Both the position numbers and the translations under genes were made by a program. DNA of 38,374 nucleotides. Origin: an uncultured Flavobacteriaceae bacterium (lineage in GTDB: Bacteria > Bacteroidota > Bacteroidia > Flavobacteriales > Flavobacteriaceae). The notes under the pieces were generated by a model, which was not told the DNA's origin, did not search any database, and saw only the letters and a list, made by a program, of their open reading frames with translations. Below, one piece after another: positions 22,620-30,500 of this stretch (position 1 is its first letter; every line of letters begins with the position of its first letter). Where the stretch lies: positions 1-38,374 of the forward strand of contig CAJQMN010000084.1 of assembly GCA_905479435.1 (NCBI GenBank). Direction: 5' to 3'.

Positions 22620-24083
22620 TTAATTTAATTTATTGGGTAAAGTTACGGTAAATACTGTTCCTTCTCCTGCTACAGAGGTGAAGTTAATTGAACCCTCATA
22701 GGCTTCAATAATATTTTTGATCATAGGAAGCCCGAGTCCCATTCCACTTGTTTTTGTTGTAAATTTAGGTTCAAAAATTAAGTGCTCAACTTCTAGTTCA
22801 ATCCCTTTTCCATTATCTGAAACTTCTATAAATATTTTTTTATTTTTTATAAAAACTTTGACAACAATTTTAGGATTCCTTACCCCTTCAACTGCTTGCT
22901 TTGCATTTTTGACTAGATTTGTTACTATCCGAATCAGCTGAGTTTTATCCAAGTTTGCAAACACCTCTTCTTTTTCAGGTAGATATTCAACATAGTCCTC
23001 ACTAAATATATCAAGAGCCATTTTTACAACTTCTATTATCTCAATTTTTTCTTTACGCTGTTTTGGCATTTTTGCAAAATCAGAAAAGGCCTCTGCAATT
23101 GAGCTCATAACATCTATTTGTTGTATTAATGTATTACTGTATTCTTTTAATTTTACTTTAATATTTGGGTCATTAATATCGAACCTTCTTTCAAAACTTT
23201 GAACAGAAAGCCTCATTGGCGTAAGTGGATTTTTAATTTCATGAGCAACTTGTTTTGCCATCTCCCTCCAGGCTTGTTCACGCTCACTTGTTGCTAATTT
23301 GACTGCACTTTCTTCTAACTCATCGATCATATTGTTATAGCCCTCTACCAGAATTCCAATTTCTGCACTTGCTGAACTTAATACAATTTTTTCATTCCTC
23401 TCATTTAGCCTAGTGCGTTTCATTTTATCTGTAATATTCTTAATAGACCTTGTAATATAACTCGATAAAAAATAGGCTAACATTATTGCTATTAAAAGCA
23501 TAAATAGGTATACAAGAATTAAACGCGTTAAAAAAACCTTTAGCTCAGATTCTTGGATGGTATTGTCTTGATTAAATTCTAACTTTAGAATACCAATTCT
23601 ATTAGAAATTGAGTCAAGAATATAGGTATATGATGTTTCAATTTTAATTTTATTATTTTCTTCAACTTCAAAAACTCTGTCTTCTTTACTAGATTTTAAT
23701 TGAGAAACTTTTGAAATAGACAAGTTGGGAGGTATTGAGTCTTTTAAGCCAAAAGGAACGGAAGTTCTTAACATTGCACCACCCAAATCATACATTGTGA
23801 TTTCTAAATTGTGAACGTATGCAATCTCATATATAGCATTTTGAAATATTGTTTTAAGGTTTTCAGTTGTGACAGCGATATTTGAACGTTGATATAATTG
23901 TATGTCTAATTCTTTTTTTAAGGTTTCCTCCTTTCTCCCAAATCGGCTAACGTTATAATCTATGGTTTGTTTATTATATTGATATATAGTTACCCCTATA
24001 ATTAATATTGTTGCCAAAAAAATTAGCAAAATCATTACAATAAAGATTCTAATTCTTAATGATATGTTGTTAAATTTTTTCAA
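22620..24083 (-). CDS. Membrane sensor histidine kinase (HAMP)
   Basis: The 487-residue kinase has a first membrane helix (about 12-34) and a periplasmic sensor region of about 150 residues. A second helix (about 185-207) leads to a HAMP linker. The HisKA dimerisation domain has the phospho-accepting His281 in EMAKQVAHEIKNPLTPMRLS. The HATPase domain holds N-box NLVKNAKQAV, G1 DNGKGIE and G2 GMGLGLPM. The H-box HEIKNPL resembles the NtrY-like group. No response regulator is adjacent, so it is an orphan kinase. It is cotranscribed with a crotonase gene. The signal is unknown. Confidence 0.93.
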   Translation of the reverse strand: MKKFNNISLRIRIFIVMILLIFLATILIIGVTIYQYNKQTIDYNVSRFGRKEETLKKELDIQLYQRSNIAVTTENLKTIFQNAIYEIAYVHNLEITMYDLGGAMLRTSVPFGLKDSIPPNLSISKVSQLKSSKEDRVFEVEENNKIKIETSYTYILDSISNRIGILKLEFNQDNTIQESELKVFLTRLILVYLFMLLIAIMLAYFLSSYITRSIKNITDKMKRTRLNERNEKIVLSSASAEIGILVEGYNNMIDELEESAVKLATSEREQAWREMAKQVAHEIKNPLTPMRLSVQSFERRFDINDPNIKVKLKEYSNTLIQQIDVMSSIAEAFSDFAKMPKQRKEKIEIIEVVKMALDIFSEDYVEYLPEKEEVFANLDKTQLIRIVTNLVKNAKQAVEGVRNPKIVVKVFIKNKKIFIEVSDNGKGIELEVEHLIFEPKFTTKTSGMGLGLPMIKNIIEAYEGSINFTSVAGEGTVFTVTLPNKLN

Positions 24084-24204
24084 TGTTTTTAGTAGATCAG
24101 TATCGATTTATATTTCTTAAAAAAGCTTTCTAATAACAATTTCAATTCCTAAAAAATTAAAATTAATAAGTGACAAACAAGATACATAAAGAAAATCAAA
24201 AAAA

Positions 24205-24231
24205 AGCTGATGTAAATAAATTACACCAGCT
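24205..24231 (-). terminator. Terminator after leuS
   Basis: An 11-bp stem (arms 24205-24215 and 24221-24231, one G-U wobble) has a 5-nt loop. On the minus strand a run of eight T follows. It lies 27 bases beyond the leuS stop. Confidence 0.85.
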
Positions 24232-24257
24232 ATACCTAAATTTGTTTCTTGTTTAAA

Positions 24258-27200
24258 CTACCCGACAATATTTATTATTTTTCCAGGAACAATAATAATT
24301 TTTTTAGGAGTTCTTCCTGCCAATTGGGCCTGAGTTTTTTCTTGTGCCATAACAGTTTTTTCTATGTCCTCTTTGGACATATCTAAAGGCAATTCTAGTG
24401 TAAACCTCATTTTCCCATTAAAAGAAACTGGATAGTTCTTAGAGCTTTCTACTAAATATTTGGCTTCAAAAATTGGAAAATCTTCTGTTGAAATAGATAC
24501 TTCATGCCCTAATTTACTCCATAATTCTTCAGCAATATGGGGTGCATAAGGTGAGATTAGCAATAGTAACGGTTCTAAAATATCTCGTTTATTACATTTA
24601 TGCGCAGTTAACTCATTAACAGCGATCATAAAAGTAGAGACAGATGTGTTAAATGAAAAGTTCTCAATATCTTCTTCTACTTTTTTGATCGTTTTATGCA
24701 AGGTCTTTAATTCTTCTGGGGTTGGCTCAGCATCTGAAATAGAGAATTCTTCACCGTTATAAAACAACTTCCATAATTTCTTTAAGAAAGAATGTACTCC
24801 AGAGATACCTGATGTTTTCCAGGGTTTGGCTTGTTCTAATGGCCCCAAAAACATTTCAAATAAACGCAGACTATCTGCTCCATATTCTGCACAAATATTG
24901 TCTGGGTTTACAACATTGTATTTTGATTTAGACATCTTCTCTACTTCTCTAGAGACTTTAAAAGTCCCGTCTTCTTCAACAATAAATTCTGCATCTTTAA
25001 ACTCCTCTCTCCAACTTTTGAAGGCCTCAATATCTAGTTCATCTGATGAATTCACAAAAGAAACGTCTGTATGAATAGGTTGAACTTTTTTATCTTGGAT
25101 TAATCCTTTTGAATAAAACTTACGAGTACCCTCTTCCCTAAAAACAAAAGCACTTGTCCCTAGAATCATTCCTTGATTGATAAGTTTTTTTGCAAACTCA
25201 TCTACAGGAACTAACCCTTTGTCAAATAGAAATTTTTGCCAAAAACGTGCATATAATAAATGTCCTGTTGCATGTTCTGACCCACCGATATATAGATCTA
25301 CCTCTTTCCAATATTCTAAAGATGCTTTGGAAGCAAACTCATCTTTATTGTTTGGATCCATATAGCGGTTAAAGTAATATGAACTTCCTGCCCAACCCGG
25401 CATGGTATTTAATTCTAGAGGATATACCGTTTTATTTTTTAATTTTTCATTCGAAACTACTTTCTTAGCACGAGAATCCCAAGCCCATTCTGTCGCATTC
25501 CCTAACGGTGGTTTTCCATCCTCAGTAGGTAGATATTTTTCTACCTCTGGAAGAACAATTGGTAAATATTTTGCAGCAATCATTTGAGGCATTCCATCCT
25601 TATAATAAACTGGGAAAGGTTCTCCCCAATAGCGTTGCCTGCTAAAAACAGCATCACGTAAACGATAATTTACTTTGCCATAACCAATTTTTTGTTTCTC
25701 TAATTCAAAAATAGATAGTTTTAAAGCTTTCTTATAAGATAAATCACTCAGAAAATCAGAATTTGAAATTGTAGTTCCCTCTTTATTTGTATGCGCTTCT
25801 TCGTCGATATTTACATCTTTAAAAATATTCGGTATTGGAATTTTAAAATGTTTTGCAAAATCATAATCTCTTTGATCTCCGCAAGGAACAGCCATTACAG
25901 CACCTGTTCCATATCCAGCCAAAACATAGTCTCCAATCCAAATCTGAACCTTTTCTCCTGAAAATGGGTGAATTGCATAAGCCCCTGTAAAAGCACCTGA
26001 AATGGTTTTTACATCCGCCATTCTATCTCTCTCAGATCTTTTAGCTGTAGCCTTTATATAATTTTCAACTTCAGTTTTTTGAGCAGCAGTTGTTATTTTA
26101 GAAACCAATTCATGCTCTGGAGCTAAAGTCATAAAACTAACTCCAAAAATAGTATCAGGTCTTGTTGTAAAAACAGAAATTTCATATGCTGTTTGTTTAG
26201 AGGAAATGTTTTCTTTTGTTGTTTTTGGAATTTCTGTCGAAAATTGAATGGCATTATTTATTTTAGAAATAACTTCCTCAACATTTTTCTCTACCTCTTC
26301 ATTAGTAACATAAAGAACATTAAATCCTTCTTCATTGAAATATGCTTTTCTAATTTTTTCATCTTCTTTCCCTGAAAATTCTACAATAATATTTTTTGAT
26401 AAACAAACATAATCTGCCAATAAAGAACCAATAGTGTATTTTTTTCTAAACTTTATAGCCCCTTTTTTTACTTTTAATTTATTCCAAAGAACAGATTCTG
26501 ATGTTGTTAAATTTGATCTGACTTCTTTGAGTTCCTCTAGGGCTTTATAAGATAATTTTGTCTCTGTATTCTCTGTTAATATTGAAGCATCAACTTTAAA
26601 GGTTACCATAGCTCCCTGCGATCGACCAATCCAATTGGTTTGTGAGTCTTTTAATGGCTGAGGCCAATCTATAGTATCTAGGCCATCCAGCAAACGTTGT
26701 GCGTAAGCAGAAATACGCATAGACCACTGGGTCATTTTTTTTCTAACCACAGGATGTCCTCCACGCTCTGAAACGCCATTGATAATTTCATCGTTTGCCA
26801 ACACTGTTCCTAATGCTGGACACCAATTTACTTCTGTATCAGATAAAAATGTTAATCGATATTTTAATAAGATTTGTTCTTGTTTTACTTTTTCAAAAGC
26901 TTTCCATTCATCAGCAGTGAACACCTCAATTTCATCGTCAGCCGCTGCATTTATACTCAAATTCCCTTCTTTTTTAAATATGGAAATTAATGAAGAAATA
27001 TCCTCTGCTTTATCAGAATCTTTATTGTACCAGGAGTCAAATAATTGAGTAAAAATCCATTGAGTCCATTTATAATATTCAGGGTTTGATGTTCGTACTT
27101 CTCGAGACCAATCAAAAGAAAATCCAATTTGATCCAATTGACGGCGGTAGGTTTTAATATTTTCTTCAGTTGTTTTTGCTGGATGTTGACCCGTTTGTAT

Positions 27201-27467
27201 GGCATATTGTTCAGCGGGTAATCCAAAAGAATCATAACCTTGTGGGTGCAATACATTGTAGCCTTTATGACGTTTGTAACGCGCATAAATATCTGATGCA
27301 ATATATCCTAAAGGATGTCCAACATGTAAACCCGCCCCTGATGGGTAAGGAAACATGTCTAAAACATAATATTTTGGTTTTTCAGAATCATTACTAGCTT
27401 TAAATGTTTGATTTTTAGCCCAATGATTTTGCCACTTTTCCTCTATTTCTTTAAAATTATAGTGCAT
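24258..27467 (-). CDS. leuS: Leucyl-tRNA synthetase with a DUF559-like insertion
   Basis: LeuRS charges tRNA-Leu. Class I signatures are GLHVGHPLGY (HIGH equivalent, about 46-55) and KMSKS at 844-848. The CP1 editing domain retains FTTRPDTIFG (433-442) and GTGAVMAVPCGDQRD (520-534, with the conserved aspartate D531). A Bacteroidota-type insert around 150-200 (NKDSDKAEDISSLISIF) is expected. The oddity is about 135 extra residues (293-427) between VTFKV and EISVF in the first CP1 loop, which bring the total to 1069 residues. The frame is open throughout and no stop or frameshift interrupts it. Both termini and all signatures are intact, so the enzyme should be functional. The insert is listed separately. 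Confidence 0.96.
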   Translation of the reverse strand: MHYNFKEIEEKWQNHWAKNQTFKASNDSEKPKYYVLDMFPYPSGAGLHVGHPLGYIASDIYARYKRHKGYNVLHPQGYDSFGLPAEQYAIQTGQHPAKTTEENIKTYRRQLDQIGFSFDWSREVRTSNPEYYKWTQWIFTQLFDSWYNKDSDKAEDISSLISIFKKEGNLSINAAADDEIEVFTADEWKAFEKVKQEQILLKYRLTFLSDTEVNWCPALGTVLANDEIINGVSERGGHPVVRKKMTQWSMRISAYAQRLLDGLDTIDWPQPLKDSQTNWIGRSQGAMVTFKVDASILTENTETKLSYKALEELKEVRSNLTTSESVLWNKLKVKKGAIKFRKKYTIGSLLADYVCLSKNIIVEFSGKEDEKIRKAYFNEEGFNVLYVTNEEVEKNVEEVISKINNAIQFSTEIPKTTKENISSKQTAYEISVFTTRPDTIFGVSFMTLAPEHELVSKITTAAQKTEVENYIKATAKRSERDRMADVKTISGAFTGAYAIHPFSGEKVQIWIGDYVLAGYGTGAVMAVPCGDQRDYDFAKHFKIPIPNIFKDVNIDEEAHTNKEGTTISNSDFLSDLSYKKALKLSIFELEKQKIGYGKVNYRLRDAVFSRQRYWGEPFPVYYKDGMPQMIAAKYLPIVLPEVEKYLPTEDGKPPLGNATEWAWDSRAKKVVSNEKLKNKTVYPLELNTMPGWAGSSYYFNRYMDPNNKDEFASKASLEYWKEVDLYIGGSEHATGHLLYARFWQKFLFDKGLVPVDEFAKKLINQGMILGTSAFVFREEGTRKFYSKGLIQDKKVQPIHTDVSFVNSSDELDIEAFKSWREEFKDAEFIVEEDGTFKVSREVEKMSKSKYNVVNPDNICAEYGADSLRLFEMFLGPLEQAKPWKTSGISGVHSFLKKLWKLFYNGEEFSISDAEPTPEELKTLHKTIKKVEEDIENFSFNTSVSTFMIAVNELTAHKCNKRDILEPLLLLISPYAPHIAEELWSKLGHEVSISTEDFPIFEAKYLVESSKNYPVSFNGKMRFTLELPLDMSKEDIEKTVMAQEKTQAQLAGRTPKKIIIVPGKIINIVG
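26187..26591 (-). other. DUF559 (Vsr/REase-like) domain inserted in LeuRS
   Basis: LeuRS residues 293-427 do not belong to the normal synthetase. Residues about 315-402 (26262-26525) follow the DUF559 pattern: LTTSESVLWNKLK, then KFRKKYTIGSLLADYVC, NIIVEFSG, a helix, GFNVLYVTNEEV and a final helix. DUF559 domains share the Vsr/PD-(D/E)xK-like endonuclease fold. The usual E-x-D of the active site appears as E363-F-S365, and the histidine after the glycine is missing, so nuclease activity is doubtful. Flanking linkers are lysine/threonine-rich. No intein splice motif is visible. The identification rests on remembered family features rather than a search. Confidence 0.82.
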
Positions 27468-27490
27468 GAAATTTTCTTCTTAAAAGTGCT

Positions 27491-27498
27491 CAAATTTA
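27491..27498 (-). promoter_or_regulatory. -7 element upstream of leuS
   Basis: On the minus strand this is TAAATTTG (TAnnTTTG), 24 bases before the ATG at 27467. Confidence 0.5.
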
Positions 27499-27598
27499 CA
27501 CTTATTCTTGCAAAGTATAAAGTCTATCTAATAATAATGGGATTCTTAAAACATCAAAAAGTATTTTAAACTACTAAAATGTTAACTAAAAAATAAAA

Positions 27599-27637
27599 CC
27601 CATAAAAAAGACAAAATAAAATTCATCTTTTTATGGG
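27599..27637 (-). terminator. Terminator after the DUF2911 gene
   Basis: A 10-bp stem (CCCATAAAAA with TTTTTATGGG) has a 19-nt loop. On the minus strand it is followed by TTTTATTTTTT. It lies 26 bases beyond the stop. Confidence 0.7.
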
Positions 27638-27662
27638 CCTAAACTATTAAAAGTTAAAGGTT

Positions 27663-28193
27663 TTATTTCACTGGTATACTTAAGATAACATCTCCCCATC
27701 CCATGTGAATTGTCATGTCTTTATCAATTATAATTGAAAATAGGTCAATAATTTTCTCTGACTTTTTAACAGGTATACTAACCTTGGCCACATCATTTTC
27801 ATCTTTATGAAAATAAACCCCCCATACGTTTACCTGACTACTTAACACTACTGTCCATGAAGTTTCTCCTGGAATTGTATACATTGTATACGTACCTGAC
27901 TTTACTTCAGTACCACCAAAATTAACATCTTTGTAAAATGTAATTTCTGTTGCTTCATTAGCTCCTGTTCTCCACTTTTTCCCAAACTTAGCTAAGTTTG
28001 TTATAGACCTCCCTTTTAACTGAGGTCTGCTGTAGATGATTTTTATCACTTTATCTGAAATTCTGTAATTATCTGGATAAGATGCCAAATCCATAGGACT
28101 TTTATCTAATCCTTTGAAGTCTTGTGCTATCGCTTGATTTAAAAAAATTCCGCTAAAAAAAAGTATCGTAACTACTAAAAATGTTTTTTTCAT
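27663..28193 (-). CDS. DUF2911 family secreted protein
   Basis: The 176-residue protein has a signal peptide (MKKTFLVVTILFFSGIFLNQAIAQ, cleavage near 24). It contains the DUF2911 core: IKIIYSRPQLKGRSI, KKWRTGANEATEITFYKDVNFGG, TYTMYTIPGETSWTVVLSSQ and a C-terminal GWGDVILSIPV. The family is common in Bacteroidota, is predicted to be periplasmic, and has no established biochemical role. It stands alone between leuS and the feo operon, with a terminator at its 3' end. Confidence 0.9.
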   Translation of the reverse strand: MKKTFLVVTILFFSGIFLNQAIAQDFKGLDKSPMDLASYPDNYRISDKVIKIIYSRPQLKGRSITNLAKFGKKWRTGANEATEITFYKDVNFGGTEVKSGTYTMYTIPGETSWTVVLSSQVNVWGVYFHKDENDVAKVSIPVKKSEKIIDLFSIIIDKDMTIHMGWGDVILSIPVK

Positions 28194-28269
28194 GATATAA
28201 AATATTTAAGGTTTAAATTTTTTGTCTGTTACATCTGGTTTTAAAAAAAGGTTTTTTTACTGTAAAATT

Positions 28270-28380
28270 TTAGCAATCACAATCTTTATTGCATCCAGAC
28301 GTCGTCTTCTTGAAGAAGAATTTTTTAACTAAGAAAAAAACTGCTACTCCAACTGCACTATATACTATAATTTCTTGCAT
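28270..28380 (-). CDS. FeoB-associated Cys-rich membrane protein
   Basis: The 36-residue protein begins MQEIIVYSAVGVAVFFLVKKFFFKK, one membrane helix, and ends in a short cytosolic tail with three cysteines (TSGCNKDCDC). This is the FeoB_associated family found after feoB in many Bacteroidota, comparable in position to FeoC. The ATG shares one base with the feoB stop (TAATG), a strong sign of translational coupling. A longer in-frame start further upstream lies inside feoB and is not needed. The cysteine tail may bind iron, but this is not shown. Confidence 0.88.
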   Translation of the reverse strand: MQEIIVYSAVGVAVFFLVKKFFFKKTTSGCNKDCDC

Positions 28381-30500
28381 TAGCTTAGTATTTGAAATAC
28401 AATAAAGGAGCAAATATAGGCCAAAACACCCATACCTACGAATTGAACTAAAGGCCATTTCCAACTTTTAGTTTCTCGTTTTACAATAGCCAAAGTTGCC
28501 ATACACTGCATAGCAAATGCATAAAAAACCAGTAAAGACATGCCTACTGGAAAATTAAATCTTTTAGTATTGGTTTCAGGATTAATTTCTGAGGCCATTC
28601 GTTGCTTTATTGTTGTAATATCATCATCATCACTTTCTACCGAATAAATGGTTGCTAAAGTTCCTACAAAAACCTCTCTTGCAGCAAAAGAACTAATTAA
28701 AGCTATACCTATTTTCCAATCATAGCCCAATGGTTTAATTAAAGGTTCTATACTTTTTCCCATGATGCCAATGTATGAGTTTTCTAATTTGGCAGAGGCA
28801 ATCATTTGATTAAGTTTTACTTCAGTAATTTCTTGGCTTACTGTTTTTTCAATAATATTTTTTTCAACATCAGTATAAGCTTGTGGACCATTAGAAGCTA
28901 AAAACCAGAGCACTATTGAGATTGATAAAATTATTTTTCCAGCACCAAAAATAAAAGCCTTTGTTTTTTCAATTACATCAAAAAATACATTTTTCAATGA
29001 TGGTAATTTATAATCTGGCATTTCTACCACAAAAAATGAAGTGTTTTTTATTTTTAGTGTTTTATGAAGGATTATTGCAGCTATAATAGCGGTTATAAAA
29101 CCCAGGATATATAAACTAAGTAGAGTTAACCCTTGTAAATTTAAAATTCCAAAAATCTTTTTGTCAGGAATAATTAATGCAATAATAATTGCATAAACCG
29201 GCAAACGTGCAGAACAGGTTGTAAACGGTGTTACCAGTATAGTGATTAGGCGTTCTTTCCACCCTGAAATATTACGAGTAGCCATAACAGCAGGAATAGC
29301 ACAAGCTGTTCCTGAAATTAATGGAATAACACTTTTCCCACTCATTCCAAAACGTCTCATGATTTTATCCATTAGAAAAACAACCCTACTCATGTACCCT
29401 GTTTCTTCAAGTAGAGAAATAAATAAGAATAATATTGCAATTTGTGGAATAAAAATAATAATTCCTCCAATTCCAGGAATGATTCCCTCTGAAATTAAGT
29501 TATTTAAAACTCCAGCAGGCATCGTTTGGTTTACATAAGAACTGAGGTTTGCAAATACAGTGTCTATAAGATCCATAGGAAGACTTGCCCAGTCAAAAAT
29601 AGATTGAAAAATTAATAGCAACACAGTGAAAAATAGGATATATCCAAAAATTTTGTGTGTAAAAACCTTATCTAGCTTAGCTCTTAAATCTGTTGCTTTA
29701 GAACGATCTGCAAGGTATGTTTTTTTTAATATTTCATTAATTTTTTGATACCTATAAATGGTTTCTTTATGCTGGTATTTCTTTAAATTTTTGGAGTCGT
29801 TTTTAAAAGTTAAAAGCGCTTTTTTTTCATCTTCTGAAATCTTGTCAGGAAAACTATTTTGAGTAATCATTAACCATAATTCATATATAGAATATTTTGG
29901 ATTAATTTCTTTTAATCTGTCAAAATAAGCAGGATCAATTCTGTTATTAACATTACATAATGGAAATGCTTTTGCTGAATTATACGTTTTTAATATTGCT
30001 TTTTTTACCTCTTCAACTCCTATATCAGGATCTTTTCTAACACTTAATAAAACTACTTCGTTACTTAATTCTTTTTTTAATAATTTTAAATCTATTGTTA
30101 TCCCTTTTCGTTTCATTTGATCTGCCATATTAATAGCTAAAACCGTAGGTATTTCTAGGTCTTTAACCTGAGAAAAGAGTAATAGATTTCTTTTTAAGTT
30201 TTCAACATCTGCAACAACAACAATAACGTCTGGAGTTTTTTCTGATTTAGAATTTAAAAGTGTTTTTAAAACAATTGTTTCATCTAAAGATGTTGGATTA
30301 ATGCTATATGTGCCAGGTAAATCTGTAATAATTGCTTTTAAATTGCTTTGTAGCTTGCTGTGCCCTTCTTTTTTGTCTACAGTAACCCCAGGGTAATTCC
30401 CAACTTTCTGATTTAAACCCGTTAGCTCGTTAAACAAGGACGTTTTACCTGTATTAGGATTTCCTATTAAAGCTACATTAATAGTTTTTTTGTGACTCAT
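28380..30500 (-). CDS. feoB: Ferrous iron transporter FeoB
   Basis: FeoB is the GTPase-linked Fe(II) importer of the cytoplasmic membrane. The 706-residue protein has an N-terminal G domain with G1 GNPNTGKT (13-20), G3 DLPGTYS and G4 NMAD. A spacer helical domain follows. The membrane part has two Gate repeats (GGIIIFIPQIAILFLFISLLEETGYMSR, ATRNISGWKERLITILVTPF) and the C-terminal repeat (ALISSFAAREVFVGTLATIYSVE). The start overlaps the feoA stop by one base, and the stop overlaps the small FeoB-associated gene, so feoA-feoB-small protein is one translationally coupled operon. Confidence 0.98.
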   Translation of the reverse strand: MSHKKTINVALIGNPNTGKTSLFNELTGLNQKVGNYPGVTVDKKEGHSKLQSNLKAIITDLPGTYSINPTSLDETIVLKTLLNSKSEKTPDVIVVVADVENLKRNLLLFSQVKDLEIPTVLAINMADQMKRKGITIDLKLLKKELSNEVVLLSVRKDPDIGVEEVKKAILKTYNSAKAFPLCNVNNRIDPAYFDRLKEINPKYSIYELWLMITQNSFPDKISEDEKKALLTFKNDSKNLKKYQHKETIYRYQKINEILKKTYLADRSKATDLRAKLDKVFTHKIFGYILFFTVLLLIFQSIFDWASLPMDLIDTVFANLSSYVNQTMPAGVLNNLISEGIIPGIGGIIIFIPQIAILFLFISLLEETGYMSRVVFLMDKIMRRFGMSGKSVIPLISGTACAIPAVMATRNISGWKERLITILVTPFTTCSARLPVYAIIIALIIPDKKIFGILNLQGLTLLSLYILGFITAIIAAIILHKTLKIKNTSFFVVEMPDYKLPSLKNVFFDVIEKTKAFIFGAGKIILSISIVLWFLASNGPQAYTDVEKNIIEKTVSQEITEVKLNQMIASAKLENSYIGIMGKSIEPLIKPLGYDWKIGIALISSFAAREVFVGTLATIYSVESDDDDITTIKQRMASEINPETNTKRFNFPVGMSLLVFYAFAMQCMATLAIVKRETKSWKWPLVQFVGMGVLAYICSFIVFQILS

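Follow-up and report, generated by a model that had tools for sequence, protein, structure and literature searches.

VsrA of Caulobacter is a DUF559 protein (PMC12907096), and in Legionella pneumophila a repeated segment carrying a transposase together with DUF559 has been reported to be a mutation hotspot, a finding on which the authors themselves are cautious (PMC12308824). In FASTKD4, whose domain has a Vsr-like cavity, mutations suggested that there is no nuclease activity (PMC11879112). It is likewise already known that REPs occur inside genes, those for tRNA synthetases included, and that Rickettsia palindromic elements (RPEs) do so as well (PMC3733652, PMC10969869). A DUF559 domain in a leucyl-tRNA synthetase (LeuRS), or DUF559 as the enzyme of a REP element, was not found described in the open-licence literature searched.

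Here we consider a 38,374-nucleotide stretch of DNA from an uncultured Flavobacteriaceae bacterium (contig CAJQMN010000084.1), referred to in its full length as the window, in which the LeuRS gene contains a DUF559 domain in frame. The reading that we favour, with a probability of roughly 0.6, is that a REP-bounded nuclease element landed in frame in this gene, lost its mobility and probably its catalysis, and was retained by LeuRS, perhaps for RNA binding.

A DUF559 domain within leucyl-tRNA synthetase

The insert apart, the protein encoded in the window is a normal LeuRS (Table 1): it scores 891.7 bits against TIGR00396, the NCBIfam equivalog model for bacterial LeuRS (cut-off 548.4), it is matched by the Pfam synthetase, LeuRS editing and anticodon-binding families, and it is the only LeuRS match at E 1e-50 or better in a genome that is 71.7% complete. 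As a preliminary description made from the letters had stated, the synthetase signatures are retained, namely HVGH (the HIGH signature), the KMSKS signature and TTRPDT of the CP1 editing domain. The same description had placed about 135 extra residues in frame at the entrance of CP1, with a strand on either side, and alignment agrees, the span from NWIG to TTRPDT being 162 residues here and 31 in many relatives. In intact relatives the left hairpin and a Y.T[AG] lead occupy the position of the N-terminal linker, and the right hairpin that of the C-terminal linker. Searches against Rfam (24000-28500) and for tRNAs gave no matches.

Table 1. Features of the leuS gene and its insert in the window.
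Feature	Position	Strand	Basis and remarks
leuS, leucyl-tRNA synthetase, 1069 aa	24258..27467	-	ORF; TIGR00396 above cut-off; Pfam families
Insert, residues 293-427, in frame	26187..26591	-	alignment to LeuRS without insert
DUF559 domain, residues 312-407	26247..26534	-	PF04480 match; predicted fold like 3HRL
N-terminal linker, residues 293-311	26535..26591	-	alignment; pair dN/dS 0.192 in relatives
C-terminal linker, residues 408-427	26187..26246	-	alignment; pair dN/dS 0.416 in relatives
Changed active-site stretch EFSGKEDE, residues 363-370	26358..26381	-	alignment, conservation; EVDG..H in intact relatives
Asp352	26412..26414	-	conservation: 75/75 distinct inactive-type domain sequences
Residues 334-341 (KKGAIKFR)	26445..26468	-	K334, K335, G336, K339, F340, R341 conserved 75/75
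HVGH, residues 48-51	27315..27326	-	sequence
KMSKS, residues 844-848	24924..24938	-	sequence
TTRPDT, residues 434-439	26151..26168	-	sequence

The identity of the insert as a DUF559 nuclease-fold domain, also claimed in the preliminary description, is borne out by sequence and by fold. PF04480 matches residues 312-407 of the full protein at 3.7e-16 and the 135-residue insert alone at 1.2e-17, with 64.2 bits against a cut-off of 20.6, and this is the sole DUF559 match up to E 10 in the window genome at its 71.7% completeness. The structure predicted for the insert alone has a core pLDDT above 90 and a REase-like fold; Foldseek ranks 3HRL, an endonuclease-like protein, first (E 5.8e-5, TM score 0.83 by target length), this being the only solved structure to match the model at E 0.001 or better, and phmmer relates the insert to 3HRL at 5e-8. 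There follow chains of the Toxoplasma mitoribosome and the homing endonuclease I-Bth0305I, at E 1.6e-3 to 1.1e-2 (I-Bth0305I at 4.9e-3), and Vsr itself stands far down, at E 1.3. We take the mitoribosome chains ranked 2 and 4 to be RAP proteins. The claim that the insert follows the DUF559 layout stands in part: the family match covers the domain, but the EVDG..H stretch of relatives is absent.

The full-length model of LeuRS is poor (mean pLDDT 62.5, pTM 0.36); it sets the domain between strands 280-292 and 429-434 with low-confidence linkers, and at this quality it gives no firm position for the insert with respect to the tRNA. An intein reading was rejected, no splicing (Hint) family appearing among the Pfam matches to LeuRS up to E 1. 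A second variable stretch of the protein lies at residues 763-848 (24924-25181, from INQGM to EKMSKS), where relatives have about 85 to 165 residues in clearly distinct versions that do not simply track close kinship.

The insert among relatives and its derived lineage

Of 249 same-family genomes, 123 match PF04480 at E 0.01; LeuRS is matched in 243 of the family's genomes, and no fewer than 20 of these carry DUF559 in LeuRS at the window's place. Within the genus, 57 of 58 genomes have a LeuRS match, and the 54 of these that were read (three were left out) comprise 28 with the window's type of insert (the inactive type), 4 with the intact type and 22 without DUF559. A universal LeuRS feature is rejected by these family and genus counts. 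The preliminary description had asked whether the insert is clade-wide or patchy, and there is something of both: it is patchy in the family and belongs mostly to one clade in the genus. Among the best 80 of 246 loci, named records with the window's type come from Polaribacter, Tenacibaculum and Lutibacter, and those with intact inserts from Capnocytophaga, Cellulophaga, Dokdonia, Gillisia and Winogradskyella. In LeuRS without an insert, loop residues such as DGHDAKI are common to several genera, and because they recur in this way we read this loop as the ancestral state.

In other relatives the LeuRS loop holds short repeat-coded peptides, for example VIASETKQS, TERSRS, VQHD and ISSEVEKS; such peptides occur at the LeuRS site itself (L094, L100, L106, L111, L116) and at the end of inactive-type inserts (L200, L210, L215, L220), as though more than one family of palindromic repeats used this loop to land in. 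Two same-class genomes (L160, L164) have DUF559 in LeuRS at another place, just before TMPGWAGSSW.

In a LeuRS tree built with the insert removed, 27 of the 30 inactive-type rows fall in one clade of 31 (support 100), which also holds three intact rows and one empty row; the remaining three lie elsewhere in the genus. When the 30 inactive-type inserts were aligned with 20 intact LeuRS inserts, EVDG..H was absent from every one of the 30, and the QH motif of intact relatives had become KY. Across 75 distinct inactive-type sequences, 29 of 97 domain positions are at least 95% conserved, and these include new residues that have become fixed at sites which never vary among the 20 intact inserts: H344 to Y, D370 to E and L377 to F. 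Asp352 (100%) and Glu363 (97%) are kept, so that the window's copy may retain some activity, and Lys367 is present in all 75. Residues 334-341 are, from their sequence, a candidate nucleic-acid face. For ten close pairs, chosen by eye from the LeuRS tree, dN/dS is 0.112 in the domain, 0.192 and 0.416 in the linkers and 0.064 in the LeuRS core; over 398 pairs the medians are 0.175 for the domain and 0.088 for the core. The dN/dS set had 89 rows, with some alleles counted twice, against 75 that are distinct. Given the low dN/dS and the conserved new residues, the inactive-type domain is under purifying selection and is not simply decaying.

The main rival to a role in contacting RNA is that the insert is a tolerated passenger, functionless in LeuRS and conserved only since misfolding would harm an essential enzyme. 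The domain does have a higher dN/dS than the core (0.112 against 0.064), the loop does hold other short repeat-coded peptides in relatives, and LeuRS lacking the insert is common in the genus; however, that the domain is more constrained than its linkers, and that three new residues have become fixed, suggests more than folding. We regard the passenger explanation as somewhat unlikely and prefer a copy retained for use, most likely one that touches RNA.

Other hosts and the ancestry of the copies

The preliminary description had taken DUF559 proteins to be normally free-standing, which is not the case in this phylum, where the domain often resides in frame in other proteins. Among ten chosen hosts, Pfam places DUF559 inside LeuRS, MetH, RecG, a Type ISP enzyme and a class Ia synthetase that carries DUF5915 and is read as IleRS; in HisD the domain comes last, and in the HemD and PLP-dependent enzyme cases it precedes the host. 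Across the phylum, PF04480 at 1e-10 is found in 126 of 296 genomes, often in long open frames. Judged by eye from the flanks, likely hosts there are MetH, restriction enzymes (some HsdR-like), HisF, a helicase and, at its second place, LeuRS. The loci read in family and phylum were those that scored best among the matches listed, together with others chosen for their long open frames, and the shares of in-frame copies are therefore no estimates. A one-off fusion was rejected, given the many hosts. DUF559 stands ahead of HemD in eight genomes (L006, L014, L016, L021, L029, L031, L050, L051; HemD was identified by Pfam in L006 only), and these copies lie close together on a branch of their own (support 99), apart from the main group of in-frame copies.

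A tree of 104 domains, in which 46 of 101 inner forks have support under 80, contains one clade of 52 (SH-aLRT 96) that unites copies from unrelated hosts: all 20 intact LeuRS copies, 11 from MetH, 4 from RecG, those in HisD, in the IleRS-like enzyme and at the second place in LeuRS, 6 in other hosts, and all 6 inactive-type rows, the window's among them. Only 1 of 25 free-standing copies belongs to it, and 8 HemD, 5 HsdR and 9 restriction-enzyme copies lie outside. The nearest neighbours of the window's copy are LeuRS-resident domains (support 81) and not the free-standing ones about which the preliminary description had asked; of the earlier proposal of a captured mobile endonuclease gene, the mobile-looking endonuclease origin is upheld, but not a one-off capture of a free-standing gene. 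The copies group by host gene, with a few exceptions (L155 beside L082, and L166 among the MetH copies). A Y.T[AG] lead before the domain, a motif defined after inspection of the sequences, is present in 18 of 20 intact LeuRS, 11 of 11 MetH and 4 of 4 RecG copies and in none of the 25 free-standing ones.

A possible sign of movement is that one genome (G215) has two DUF559 copies at two places in a single MetH; from outer repeat to outer repeat they agree at 345 of 418 bases, and they are sisters in the domain tree (support 91). In a related MetH (L008) the first of these places is occupied by a copy and the second by a lone in-frame hairpin. Domain identity exceeds host identity in 6 of 36 MetH pairs, 5 of 6 HsdR pairs, the one restriction-enzyme pair and 24 of 28 HemD pairs, of which the last says little because HemD evolves fast. 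At LeuRS the domain is more alike than the core in no more than 6 of the 190 pairs of intact copies and 2 of the 435 of inactive type, and for RecG in 0 of 6, so that neither host gives a sign of recent transfer; the LeuRS copies, with so few such pairs, look like old residents. Nor, among 20 LeuRS elements, does similarity of the left end follow that of the nuclease (partial r 0.12, with 677 of 5000 permutations as high).

These observations could be taken to mean that a single ancient insertion into LeuRS was inherited vertically and lost in most lineages, with mobility unneeded. The rarity of domain identities above core identities is in keeping with this, as is the fact that on the DUF559 tree 3 changes suffice to account for the LeuRS copies. 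On the LeuRS tree, however, intact status needs 11 changes, at least 8 of them forced by starred branches in a chosen sample; the DGHDAKI-like residues shared across genera would be hard to restore by deletion; the same LeuRS place has differing hairpin types; and related domains reside in other hosts. We consider such descent unlikely and favour arrival by a mobile element.

Hairpin ends, REPs and a proposed origin

The flanks of in-frame and free-standing DUF559 copies carry hairpins in inverted orientation, as at one locus (L032), whose left flank has TTCCCCCTAGCCCCCAAAGGGGGAA and whose right flank has TTCCCCCTTCGGGGGTTAGGGGGAT. The two flanks of a copy are more complementary to each other than are control windows from the same loci (p 2e-22 for 97 domains and 970 windows), and this is so both for frames above 220 aa (p 4e-13, n=73) and for shorter ones (p 9e-14, n=24). 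The 99th percentile of the control is passed by 36 of 97 copies only, and one control window scored 270, far beyond the rest of its distribution. The test was run on 98 domains, one being dropped for short flanks, and excluded the window's inactive type (weak scores), L004 (the same place as L033) and L048. When the best hairpin of each flank is taken, both arms exceed the control 95th percentile in 45 of 98 copies and at least one does in 81 of 98 (319 control windows). Several hairpin types can be seen by eye among copies at the same LeuRS place; beside the window's insert, inspection by eye revealed neither inverted hairpins nor a palindrome.

One such REP pattern, allowing at most 2 mismatches, occurs in 44 of 249 same-family genomes, the reversed control appearing at most twice in any listed genome. 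DUF559 (91 genomes with best PF04480 E under 1e-9) is present in 28 of 31 genomes with at least 2 REP matches and 63 of 218 others (p 4.5e-11), and in 18 of 20 with at least 4 (p 4e-7), genome kinship being ignored in both; at low REP counts the link is partly built in because one element brings two REPs of its own. An alternative is that the REPs are moved by RAYT/Y1 transposases and that DUF559 is only cargo between them. A Y1 match is indeed present in 24 of the 31 genomes with at least 2 REPs (odds ratio 7.0; the search covered a broad family at E 0.001, in which not every match is a RAYT), but the link between REPs and DUF559 persists among Y1-negative genomes (odds ratio 24, p 6e-4) as well as Y1-positive ones (p 9e-5), and that between REPs and Y1 is weak within DUF559 strata (p 0.16 and 0.035). 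Y1 transposases as the sole explanation of the REPs were rejected on these figures. Also against the cargo explanation is a genome (G023) with 37 REP matches that lacks any Y1 match and whose single match to DUF559 lies in LeuRS; its REPs are of a TTCGGG variant, the same as at the end of its own LeuRS element. We judge it quite unlikely that DUF559 is a mere cargo, and suggest instead that the DUF559 nuclease moves the element. In the window genome, at 71.7% completeness, PF01797 (Y1 tyrosine transposase) has no match.

The lone REPs of the 37-match genome, 15 of them at 14 fetched places, lie outside stop-free frames of 180 aa or more in 14 cases and at the very start of such a frame in the other; they are thus intergenic or nearly so, and the in-frame habit is not seen in them. 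Seven (L250, L252, L255, L256, L258-L260) resemble one another over more of their flanks, as though they belonged to a bigger repeat lying between genes.

That the kept Asp352 (75/75) and Glu363 (97%), with the gained Lys367 (75/75), make the window's domain a nuclease of another kind, acting for instance on tRNA, is very improbable, the second acid and the histidine of EVDG..H being gone, QH having become KY, and FASTKD4, with the same fold, having been suggested to have no nuclease activity (PMC11879112).

The origin that we favour would run as follows. The ancestor of the insert would have been a small mobile element, a DUF559 reading frame (Vsr-like, of the PD-(D/E)XK fold) between two inverted REP-like hairpins, and, being open from end to end, such an element could sit in a protein loop without splicing. 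Elements of this kind would occupy a few tolerant places in essential Bacteroidota proteins, among them the LeuRS loop where CP1 begins, and their persistence in essential genes would follow from their open frame and from the tolerance of these loops. Intact copies would spread by their own nuclease. In the lineage of the window the hairpins, EVDG..H and QH would have been lost and the active-site motif rebuilt; with these losses the copy is probably immobile and no longer a DNA nuclease, its lack of catalysis being suggested by the sequence, and it would have been kept as a folded part of LeuRS. It may now serve the synthetase, in which case contact with RNA is the likeliest way, RAP domains being an example of this fold so used. 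A tRNA-contacting role is our preferred guess because RNA binding is a known non-nuclease use of the Vsr-like fold, and a part in editing or tRNA binding is plausible; no observation made here bears on the phage sensing that the preliminary description also named. Since intact-type, inactive-type and insert-free LeuRS exist within one genus, the function is open to comparative testing.

More broadly, and more tentatively, at somewhat less than an even chance, these elements may be a distinct class, in which REP-bounded Vsr-like nucleases enter conserved genes in frame and persist unspliced, lone REPs are dependent derivatives, and LeuRS of one flavobacterial lineage has gained from such an element a new working domain whose active-site region is rebuilt. 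If this is right, some REPs gain a candidate enzyme other than RAYT, selfish DNA can inhabit essential genes without splicing, and the passage of a domain from parasite to component of a tRNA synthetase can be traced. The finding would bring together three subjects that are usually treated separately: palindromic repeats of no known mover, the DUF559 nucleases, which are widespread but poorly understood, and insertions in essential enzymes for which there is no explanation.

Set beside known systems, the insert shares sequence family and fold with the DUF559/Vsr-like nucleases (PF04480, 3HRL), but the window's copy is inside LeuRS and has lost the EVDG..H stretch. With RPEs and intragenic REPs it has in common that in-frame palindromic repeats lie within working genes (PMC10969869, PMC3733652). 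An RPE is about 150 bp and encodes a short peptide, whereas here a whole nuclease domain lies between two hairpins in relatives, and the window's own insert is a 135-residue folded domain with no palindrome seen. REPtrons have a RAYT gene between REPs and lone REPs elsewhere in the genome (PMC3733652), and the DUF559 elements do likewise, but with DUF559 in place of a Y1 tyrosine transposase and in frame inside essential proteins. Like homing endonucleases and inteins, DUF559 copies cluster by host gene and reside in conserved genes, and the fold of the insert is near that of I-Bth0305I; the likeness is one of fold and host clustering alone. Inteins splice out, whereas the DUF559 domain stays in LeuRS, where no splicing family was found. 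RAP domains such as that of FASTKD4 use the Vsr-like fold with RNA, with nuclease activity doubted (PMC11879112); they are eukaryotic and stand outside synthetases, and what the LeuRS insert shares with them is the fold only.
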